From the NCBI GenBank assembly GCA_019638835.1, contig JAHBTC010000010.1, positions 1-45,207 on the forward strand: a stretch of DNA of 45,207 nucleotides. Reading direction: 5' to 3'. A program made the position numbers and the translations under genes. The notes under the pieces were generated by a model. That model was given only the letters and a program-made list of their open reading frames with translations, ran no database searches and was not told where the DNA came from. The stretch is from Fimbriimonadaceae bacterium (GTDB taxonomy: Bacteria > Armatimonadota > Fimbriimonadia > Fimbriimonadales > Fimbriimonadaceae). Shown here in pieces: positions 17,328 through 19,869 of the stretch (positions are counted from its first letter, which is position 1; each line of letters begins with the position of its first letter).

Positions 17328-17876
17328 ATGTCGACTCCAAAGAACTTAATCTTGCCCGACCCTAATGTTTTGAACAAGGTCGATTACGGAAAGTTTGTTC
17401 TGGCGAACCTCGCCGCCAAGCGCGCCAAGCAGATCAAGGAGGGTGCGCCGCCGCTTGTTCGCATCGATTCCAATCACCCCCTGAGCATCGCGTTGGCGGA
17501 GATTGCGGCCGGGAAGATCAAGCCGGTCCTTGATCCGAATGCGGTTGCTGCTATGGAAGAAGGGTTCGACGTGCCCACGCTTGACCTTGACGACGACGAC
17601 TTCCTGTTGCCTGGTCTCGACGATGAGGATGACGACGACAACGACAACGAAGGCGACACCCTCACCCTCGACGACCTCGATGATGAAGAGGAAGACGACT
17701 CCGACGATGACGACGACGATGACGCGAAGCGTGTTGCCGGATCCGGGGGAGACTCGGACGTGGATGACGACGACGTAGATGTCGTGACGGATGACTCGGA
17801 TGATGACGGCCCGACGATTTCGCTGGATGACCTGAAAGAAGAGGAAGACAGCGAAGACAGCGAGCCCGAAGACTAA
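17328..17876 (+). CDS. rpoZ: RNA polymerase omega subunit with a long acidic C-terminal tail
   Basis: Omega helps fold and hold the beta-prime subunit. Residues about 18-66 carry the omega fold (YGKFVLANLAAKRAKQIKEG and HPLSIALAEIAAGKI, matching the conserved AAxRARQ and ALxEIxxGKI). Most omegas end soon after this point. Here 116 more residues follow; residues 81-182 contain 55 Asp/Glu and only three Lys/Arg, in runs such as DDSDDDDDDD. Three short hydrophobic motifs of the form TxxLDD (84-89, 111-116, 163-168) interrupt the acid. The tail resembles in composition the acidic tail of the Firmicutes delta subunit (RpoE), which displaces nucleic acid from RNA polymerase. It leads an operon with dnaJ, prmA and rsmE. 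Confidence 0.85.
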   Translation: MSTPKNLILPDPNVLNKVDYGKFVLANLAAKRAKQIKEGAPPLVRIDSNHPLSIALAEIAAGKIKPVLDPNAVAAMEEGFDVPTLDLDDDDFLLPGLDDEDDDDNDNEGDTLTLDDLDDEEEDDSDDDDDDDAKRVAGSGGDSDVDDDDVDVVTDDSDDDGPTISLDDLKEEEDSEDSEPED

Positions 17877-17881
17877 GAGTG

Positions 17882-19021
17882 ATGGTGACTGACCCCTATG
17901 CCACCCTGGGTGTAGGTCGCGAGGCTACGCCCGACGAAATCAAGTCGGCGTACCGCAAACTCGCGAGACGTTATCACCCCGATGTCAACCCGGACAATCC
18001 TGAAGCCGAAGAGAAGTTCAAGGAGATTGGGCAGGCGTACTCCATCCTCGGTGACGAGGAGAAGAAGGCGAGGTACGACCAGTACGGCGTCACCGACGAC
18101 CAACCCGGTGCGGGCGGTCCGGGAGGCGAGTATTTCGGGGCAGGCACGAACATCAATGACTTGTTCGAGCAGTTCTTTGGCGGATTTGGGGGCACAGGTT
18201 TCGGAGGGGGGCGAGGAACAGGACGGGACGGGGACGATGTTCGCGCCGACACCACGGTCACGCTTCACGAAGTTCTGACGGGGACCCAGCGGACGATCAA
18301 GTACCGACGGATGGCCGTTTGCGATCACTGTCAAGGGGAAGGTGCGGAACCCGGAACTCCGGTGGAAACGTGCGGAACCTGTAACGGACGCGGAGCCGTG
18401 ATGCGGGTGGCGAACACGATCTTGGGGCAAGTCCAAACTCAGACCACTTGTCCAACCTGTCGTGGAGTGGGGAAGACCATTCAAACCCCTTGCAAGGAGT
18501 GTTCGGGGCGAAAGGTCAAGGTGCAAGATGCGGAAGTGGACATCACCGTTCCACCCGGAGTGGATGACGGCATCACCCTTCGCGTTGCGGGTCGAGGGAA
18601 TGACGGTGTAGACGGCGGCACACCCGGAGACCTCTATGTCGTCATCAGCGTTCAGGAGACGCCCGGCACTTGGCGCGATAACCTTGACCTGCACCGTGTC
18701 GTAGAGATTTCTTATATTCAAGCGGTTCTCGGAGACAAGATTTCGGTAGATGCCTTGGACGGAAAGATTGAACTGAAACTTGACGCGGGAACGCAGCCCG
18801 AGGCGACCTCGCGAGTCCGTGGTCGAGGGTTGCCTCGTTTGCGTGGAACAGGTCGAGGCGATTTTGTGGTGCATTGGCGGCTCGTTGTGCCGAAGAAAGT
18901 GAATGAAGAACAAGTGGCCGCGCTCAAGGCGTTCGCGGAAGCCAGCGGAGAGAAGATGCCGGAGGCGGAAGATGGTGGACTTCTTGGCGGATTGTTTGGC
19001 AAGAAGAAGCGGAAGAAATGA
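17882..19021 (+). CDS. dnaJ: Chaperone protein DnaJ
   Basis: Co-chaperone that stimulates DnaK ATPase and binds unfolded protein. 379 residues with all parts in order: J domain with HPD (LARRYHPDVNPDNPEAEEKF, about residues 5-70), Gly/Phe-rich linker (FFGGFGGTGFGGGRGTGRDG), zinc region with four CxxCxGxG-type repeats (CDHCQGEG, CGTCNGRG, CPTCRGVG and CKECSGRK, the last lacking the final Gly), and the C-terminal substrate-binding domains. The ATG at 17882 is chosen; a GTG one codon earlier is possible. It ends in a Lys/Arg-rich LFGKKKRKK. The stop overlaps prmA by ATGA. Confidence 0.96.
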   Translation: MVTDPYATLGVGREATPDEIKSAYRKLARRYHPDVNPDNPEAEEKFKEIGQAYSILGDEEKKARYDQYGVTDDQPGAGGPGGEYFGAGTNINDLFEQFFGGFGGTGFGGGRGTGRDGDDVRADTTVTLHEVLTGTQRTIKYRRMAVCDHCQGEGAEPGTPVETCGTCNGRGAVMRVANTILGQVQTQTTCPTCRGVGKTIQTPCKECSGRKVKVQDAEVDITVPPGVDDGITLRVAGRGNDGVDGGTPGDLYVVISVQETPGTWRDNLDLHRVVEISYIQAVLGDKISVDALDGKIELKLDAGTQPEATSRVRGRGLPRLRGTGRGDFVVHWRLVVPKKVNEEQVAALKAFAEASGEKMPEAEDGGLLGGLFGKKKRKK

Positions 19022-19869
19022 GCGAACCCGCATCTAGTTGGATCGAAGTCAAAGCGTGGCTTCCCGAAAAGCCCGCCGATGCATCGGTTTGGCACGAAAT
19101 CTTTGAAGCCCACGGAATCCCCGGAACCGTCGAAGGCGACGAGCCACCGACGTTGAGCGGTTACCTCGCTCCCGGCGACGAAGCCCAACTTGAGCCTTTG
19201 ATGACCGCGCTCATCGAAGCCGGGGCAACGAGAGTTGAGCATCTAGATGTGCCTGACACCGATTGGGCCGAGATGTGGAAAGAGTTCTTCCGCCCTTGGC
19301 GAATCGGGAAAAGATTTGTGGTTTGCCCAACCTGGGAGACCTACGATGCCTCGCCAGAAGATATCGTGTTGACTCTTGACCCAGGGCAAGCCTTCGGCAC
19401 GGGCGACCACGCGACGACGCGCCTCTGCCTTGGGTACATCGAAGACTTCCCGCCGGAGGGTGCCGAAGTTGCGGACATCGGATGCGGAACCGCAATCTTG
19501 GCGATTGCCGCCGGAAAACTCGGCGCAAGCCGGATTGATGCCGTGGACAGTGAATCCCCGGCGGTTGAGTCTGCGCTGCATAACGCCGAGCGGAACGATG
19601 TGCCGATGACCGTTGAGCGCGGCCTCGGGTTCGACCCTTTGCCACAGAATCGAACTTACGACCTCGTTCTAAGTAACATTTTGAGTGCGGCTCTTATCTC
19701 GCTTGCGCCGGAAGCGGCACGCCGAGTTCGACTGGGGGGAGCGTGGGTTGTGAGTGGCGTAATTCAGTCAAACTGGCCCGATGTGCGGGTGGCGGCGGAG
19801 CGCGAGGGATTCACCTATGAAAGCCACCGGGAGGAAGGTGATTGGGTAGCGGCTCGGTTCCTCCGCTAA
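19018..19869 (+). CDS. prmA: Ribosomal protein L11 methyltransferase
   Basis: SAM-dependent methyltransferase that modifies L11. 283 residues. The N-terminal substrate-binding domain is followed by the PrmA signature TLDPGQAFGTGDHATTRLCL, the SAM motif VADIGCGTAILAIAAGKLGA, the acidic residue in DAVDSESP, and the NILSAALISLAPE block equivalent to the NPPY-like NI(L/V) motif of PrmA. The start overlaps the dnaJ stop (ATGA). The dnaJ-prmA-rsmE order is common in bacteria. Confidence 0.95.
   Translation: MSEPASSWIEVKAWLPEKPADASVWHEIFEAHGIPGTVEGDEPPTLSGYLAPGDEAQLEPLMTALIEAGATRVEHLDVPDTDWAEMWKEFFRPWRIGKRFVVCPTWETYDASPEDIVLTLDPGQAFGTGDHATTRLCLGYIEDFPPEGAEVADIGCGTAILAIAAGKLGASRIDAVDSESPAVESALHNAERNDVPMTVERGLGFDPLPQNRTYDLVLSNILSAALISLAPEAARRVRLGGAWVVSGVIQSNWPDVRVAAEREGFTYESHREEGDWVAARFLR

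Follow-up and report, generated by a model that had tools for sequence, protein, structure and literature searches.

The omega subunit of bacterial RNA polymerase (RpoZ) is usually viewed as a small subunit with a structural or ppGpp-related role. In most free-living bacteria this protein is 78 to 107 amino acids long, and the omegas of Chlamydiae and Rickettsiales, which are 97 to 138 amino acids long, have disordered C-terminal parts of 15 to 63 amino acids (PMC9973325). Escherichia coli omega has been described as a chaperone of beta-prime, and heat sensitivity is known for an rpoZ mutant of a cyanobacterium (PMC4227741). The eukaryotic homologue of omega, RPB6, carries an acidic disordered tail that docks onto the PH domain of TFIIH p62 by means of Phe13 and Val16 (PMC8754651). 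Acidic segments are also found on other components of the bacterial enzyme. The delta subunit (RpoE) of Bacillota is attached to RNA polymerase and ends in a disordered region that, in Bacillus subtilis, spans residues 91 to 173 and has a net charge of -47 (PMC7749165). Likewise, region 1.1 of sigma-70 (PF03979) is an acidic holoenzyme element that forms a folded domain on sigma.

Here we describe an omega subunit that combines the usual fold with a long acidic tail. The window (the complete stretch of 45,207 nucleotides that was analyzed, contig JAHBTC010000010.1 of a Fimbriimonadaceae bacterium, assembly GCA_019638835.1) includes an rpoZ open reading frame at positions 17328..17876 on the forward strand, which runs from ATG to TAA without internal stops and encodes 182 amino acids. 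Residues 22-66 match RNA_pol_Rpb6 (PF01192) with E=4.1e-14 and 52.8 bits against a cut-off of 26, and the rpoZ model TIGR00690 is matched with 34 bits against a cut-off of 23.6. The score for the narrower model NF001579 lies under its cut-off (37.8 versus 58). This gene gives the sole omega match in the 2.74-Mb source genome. Judging from these matches, the product is a genuine omega subunit that shares its fold, its single-copy status, and its scores above the PF01192 and TIGR00690 curated cut-offs with bacterial omegas at large. The fold (residues 22-66; 17391..17525, forward strand) is modeled by AlphaFold as a single chain with helices at residues 22-37 and 51-60, and the block means of pLDDT for residues 21-70 are 89 to 98.

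The remainder of the protein is an acidic C-terminal tail (residues 67-182; 17526..17873, forward strand) in which 58 of the 116 residues are acidic and three are basic, giving a net charge of -55. The last 102 residues include 44 Asp and 11 Glu (55 acidic residues) and only two Lys and one Arg (three basic residues), which exactly matches the original prediction of an omega fold followed by a tail of this composition. The pLDDT values are low in this part of the model (about 46 to 56 for residues 81-160), and the tail is predicted to be disordered except for one short motif (M3, see below). Among the 46 long open reading frames of the window, the most acidic 100-residue stretch of omega has a net charge of -50, whereas the runner-up reaches just -14. 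Therefore, the proteins encoded in the window are not generally acidic. A generally acidic or salt-adapted proteome is thus ruled out for this stretch of DNA, and the salt adaptation that had been put forward as one option is unlikely.

These features set the protein apart from each of the described systems. Its 182 amino acids exceed the common size range of omega by an added acidic tail of about 115 amino acids with conserved motifs. The omegas of Chlamydiae and Rickettsiales likewise have a predicted disordered extension past the fold, but the words “acidic” and “tail” are absent from the report on them (PMC9973325), whereas the extension described here is an acidic tail with motifs. The tail of RPB6 is also acidic and disordered, is located on an omega homologue, and has embedded hydrophobic residues, as does the omega tail. 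However, the RPB6 tail is N-terminal to the fold, is about 40 amino acids long, and uses Phe13 and Val16, whereas the tail described here is C-terminal and has Leu-based motifs. This likeness is not homology of the two tails, and the protein is not a member of the RPB6 type. Delta resembles omega here in the length and net charge of a long, disordered, acidic C-terminal region, but it has a HARE-HTH fold (PF05066) and a basic start of its tail that are both absent from this omega. RNA_pol_Rpb6 is the only domain that Pfam finds in the omega protein, and membership in the delta type is therefore excluded by the missing N-terminal HARE-HTH domain.

We sampled relatives from Armatimonadota, and the host family in this sample (f1) is very probably Fimbriimonadaceae. 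All 47 omegas extracted from this family carry the tail, which ranges from 97 to 129 amino acids with net charges of -30 to -61 and a mean of 1.2 basic residues. These representatives come from complete genomes among others and also from one genome of only 1.5 Mb (G030, L019), which retains the tail with both of its principal motifs. As a separate observation, sigma region 1.2 was not matched in this small genome. The tail is intact here and present in every f1 omega found, single-contig genomes included, which rules out a frameshift or an assembly artefact, the grounds that had been named for dismissing it.

Aligning the tails revealed short conserved motifs that had gone unnoticed in the original prediction, although its account of the acidity holds. 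Motif M1 (residues 90-100, DDFLLPGLDDE; 17595..17627, forward strand) has the family consensus ELGxLLPALDE, in which the LLP columns are nearly invariant, and its position is always 25 to 32 amino acids past the fold. The pattern LLP[ASG][LI] occurs in 45 of the 47 f1 omegas (L014 and L060 are without it), compared to a mean of 0.26 when the same tails are shuffled. Motif M3 (residues 162-174, PTISLDDLKEEED; 17811..17849, forward strand), for which the family sequence is TLSLSDIAEQEE, always lies 12 to 17 amino acids from the C-terminus and includes an invariant Ser-Leu. Its pattern [LI]SLxD[LI] is found in all 47 tails (shuffle mean, 1.07). Because the definitions and boundaries of the motifs were taken from the same alignment, these shuffle numbers overstate the significance. 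Between M1 and M3 lies a looser and weakly constrained stretch, M2, with the family form SLSDL. The corresponding stretch of the window (residues 110-122, DTLTLDDLDDEEE; 17655..17693, forward strand) resembles M2, but homology is not certain.

Sequence constraint follows the same division. Uncorrected pN/pS values from 14 pairs were 0.09 for the fold, 0.10 for M1, 0.21 for M3, 0.40 for M2, and 0.48 for the linkers, with the reservation that the pairs are related rather than independent and that synonymous sites are partly saturated. Gaps in these pairs are confined to the linkers. Over all pairs, the mean identity is 0.76 for the fold, 0.59 for M1, 0.59 for M3, and 0.24 for the linkers. Despite this 24% identity, the linkers remain 32 to 53% acidic, which shows that the charge itself is also under selection. 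The tail is more than a polyanion, in that it carries two conserved short motifs.

The predicted structures are consistent with a special status for M3. In the window omega, M3 forms a helix at residues 166-174 with Ser165 at its start and a pLDDT of about 65. A second omega (L136, presumed to be from Fimbriimonas ginsengisoli, whose chromosome is 5.23 Mb; PMC4072686) has M3 as a helix at residues 144-153 with a block mean pLDDT of 77, in a model whose fold is less confident (block means of 67 to 85). Segments that fold upon binding typically show up in this way, as a local rise in pLDDT in an otherwise disordered tail, and M3 may be one of them. No regular structure is modeled for M1. Searches of PDB sequences with the M1 and M3 patterns gave no matches, and the DNA pattern of M1 was found in other proteins of the genus hardly more often than its reversed control.

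The survey of omegas in Armatimonadota, which the original prediction had proposed, showed that long acidic tails, universal among the f1 omegas recovered, recur in a looser form in many other families. Those of f21, for example, are about 130 amino acids with a net charge of -51. In the sister family f2, the tail is for the most part short (median of 56 amino acids, net charge of -9), and families f6, f13, f22, f35, and f37 nearly lack it. The long acidic omega tail is therefore no oddity of a single genome but a common trait of the phylum that has been lost or gained in some families. M1 was found only in f1, and M3 in f1 and part of a sister family. The more general pattern h.[DEQT]LL.h occurs in 7 of 25 families (shuffle mean, 1.4; maximum, 5), and a single motif across the whole phylum is only weakly supported, M1 being family specific. 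One repeated motif was seen as well. The f38 tails (L069:1471-1950 and L080:1471-2001) have two or three copies of PSVxELLKVE, and single copies resembling it are present in omega tails of f10, f36, and f39. No omega match was obtained for five of the 151 phylum genomes (G107, G134, G140, G142, and G157), all of them at least 90% complete, and three of these belong to f21, whose other members rank among those with the longest tails. Omega in these five was lost, was missed, or is very divergent.

The gene neighborhood of rpoZ is conserved on a different scale. Directly downstream in the window is dnaJ (17879..19021, forward strand; possible starts are GTG at 17879 and ATG at 17882), which matches TIGR02349 (DnaJ_bact) with 383 bits, above the cut-off. 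It overlaps by four bases a prmA-like gene for ribosomal protein L11 methyltransferase (19018..19869, forward strand) that matches TIGR00406 with E=7e-53 and 179.9 bits, slightly below the cut-off of 183.15. The window yielded no CIRCE element. In 141 of the 146 rpoZ loci counted from the L001-L150 set for Armatimonadota, rpoZ lies next to a co-directional chaperone gene, with dnaJ downstream in 118, dnaK downstream in 20, and groEL upstream in 3. This adjacency fits the role as a beta-prime chaperone that has been reported for omega and the heat sensitivity of an rpoZ mutant. It also raises the idea that the tail is an assembly or chaperone arm, which would help to fold or hold beta-prime or would be handled by DnaJ or DnaK. 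However, the linkage also holds in the five families whose omegas have almost no tail, and thus is a separate trait of the phylum and not a property of the tail. Moreover, DnaK disfavors acidic segments. We therefore consider this explanation of the tail unlikely, the shared operon and the reported chaperone role of omega notwithstanding.

The preferred reading, to which we assign a probability of about 0.55, is that the omega tail is a flexible docking arm that would work like the acidic tail of RPB6, rather than a pure displacer of nucleic acid like delta. The main rival is the latter idea, namely that the tail is a polyanion similar to delta or to sigma region 1.1 that would extend to the main channel and, as a mimic of nucleic acid, displace DNA or RNA and either accelerate polymerase recycling or gate the melting of promoters, with the motifs serving only as anchors. 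It retains this rank because the acidity is maintained and because neither delta, nor HelD above its curated cut-off, nor region 1.1 is present in the genome. The length and charge of the tail are close to those of delta (net -47 over 83 amino acids; PMC7749165). As the original prediction anticipated, HARE-HTH was not found in the source genome, and control genomes were positive, which rules out a delta encoded elsewhere in that genome. Within the phylum, HARE-HTH occurs in 22 of 151 genomes, mostly within long open reading frames, and the one short example that was read (L154, 163 amino acids) is without an acidic tail. Similarly, no match to HelD above the curated cut-off or to region 1.1 was found in the source genome, and region 1.1 was matched in none of 37 f1 genomes and in 14 of 15 f2 genomes. 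On the other hand, the polyanion explanation leaves unexplained why motifs would be constrained like the fold. Omega is located away from the main channel of RNA polymerase, and it has neither the folded anchor of delta nor the basic start of its tail. Furthermore, long acidic omega tails coexist with region 1.1 in f8 and f21, and the presumed primary sigma of f1 already has an acidic N-terminal run of its own. In f2 to f5, the matches to region 1.1 sit on a second sigma and not on the presumed primary one. This location and the coexistence in other families rule out that the omega tail simply replaces region 1.1. Thus the suggestion that omega took over the role of delta stands in part: the similarity in charge and length and the absence of delta agree with it, but a takeover of the role is disfavored by the motifs and by the coexistence with region 1.1. 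Overall, we regard the polyanion explanation as rather improbable, if still a serious competitor.

Two further explanations were weighed. Low-constraint acidic drift or expansion of codon repeats could in principle yield a functionless tail, and the window copy of rpoZ does have GAN-rich imperfect triplet repeats, as well as linkers that vary in length and sequence across the family. This reading is largely refuted by the conservation of the motifs, by their constraint, and by the retained acidity throughout f1, even in the 1.5-Mb genome, since random mutation with one hit per site would lower the acidic fraction from 0.50 to 0.16. We consider it extremely unlikely. The tail might instead be a holoenzyme contact with the primary sigma, whose disordered N-terminus it would bind. 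In f1, the presumed primary sigma is without a detectable region 1.1; ahead of its region 1.2 it has a conserved basic sequence, RRGKAITVRT or a near variant, and then an acidic run (f1 sigma loci: L192 [G000:C155:2200-5400], L195-L201, L209-L211, L222-L231, and L243-L245). This basic stretch is present in all 27 readable f1 sigma N-termini, is absent in this form from the sigma N-termini read in f2 to f5, and has the same clade distribution as M1. In addition, one f2 sigma arm (L215) holds an M1-like sequence, ELGALLPKVDDD, with a score comparable to that of a weak M1 (shuffle P of 0.0005, with 51 arms tested). However, each trait was perhaps gained once on the same branch, which makes their co-occurrence weak evidence. 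The same f2 sigma bears a looser basic stretch, RKRSAIVRS. We consider a contact of this kind quite improbable. Two side observations concern these sigma factors. Both L215 (from G037) and another f2 sigma, L234 (from G051, with ELSALMPDLEDE), have acidic N-terminal arms with sequences that resemble omega M1. The primary sigma gene of the single-contig genome G001 (L194, G001:C1:2307200-2310200) is out of frame before region 2, which is probably a sequencing error.

The docking arm that we favor would operate as follows. The first 66 residues fold and should hold on to beta-prime in the way usual for omega, and the remaining residues, about 115 in number, would form a disordered polyanionic arm that bears short docking motifs. 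Specific docking is suggested by a motif constraint near that of the fold, which a pure polyanion would not need. The most likely docking site of M1 (LLP[ASG][LI][DE]) is on or near RNA polymerase in the vicinity of omega, because the motif has a nearly fixed distance of 25 to 32 residues to the fold and a constraint that equals that of the fold. M3 (an N-capped amphipathic [LI]SLxD[LI]AEQE) lies past a linker that varies in both length and sequence and would act as the mobile end, folding into a short helix to capture a partner. Acidic linkers are not required by docking alone, which counts against a view that includes nothing else. The linkers would keep the arm extended and away from both DNA and RNA; they may also direct it toward a basic partner surface. 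We infer from the conserved positions and constraint that the motifs bind a protein, and both the partners considered here and any effect on transcription are to be read in the same conditional sense.

A search of the open literature found no paper on omega in Armatimonadota or on an omega with an acidic tail. A long acidic omega tail with conserved candidate docking motifs thus appears to be new, on a subunit that is itself known. An acidic tail by itself should not be labeled delta-like. The motif-bearing acidic arm of omega is conserved throughout the family, with looser acidic tails across the phylum, and at least one family member, Fimbriimonas ginsengisoli, has been cultured and has a complete genome. 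More tentatively, and as a possibility that we hold with considerable doubt, omega of Fimbriimonadaceae may be a recruitment platform of the polymerase. This bacterial counterpart of the RPB6 tail would use its two separate docking motifs to bring to RNA polymerase either a factor specific to the lineage or the primary sigma by its basic N-terminus, and in sister families related motifs would move between the tails of omega and the arms of sigma. If this is true, bacteria would have a recruitment tail of the RPB6 kind on their core polymerase.
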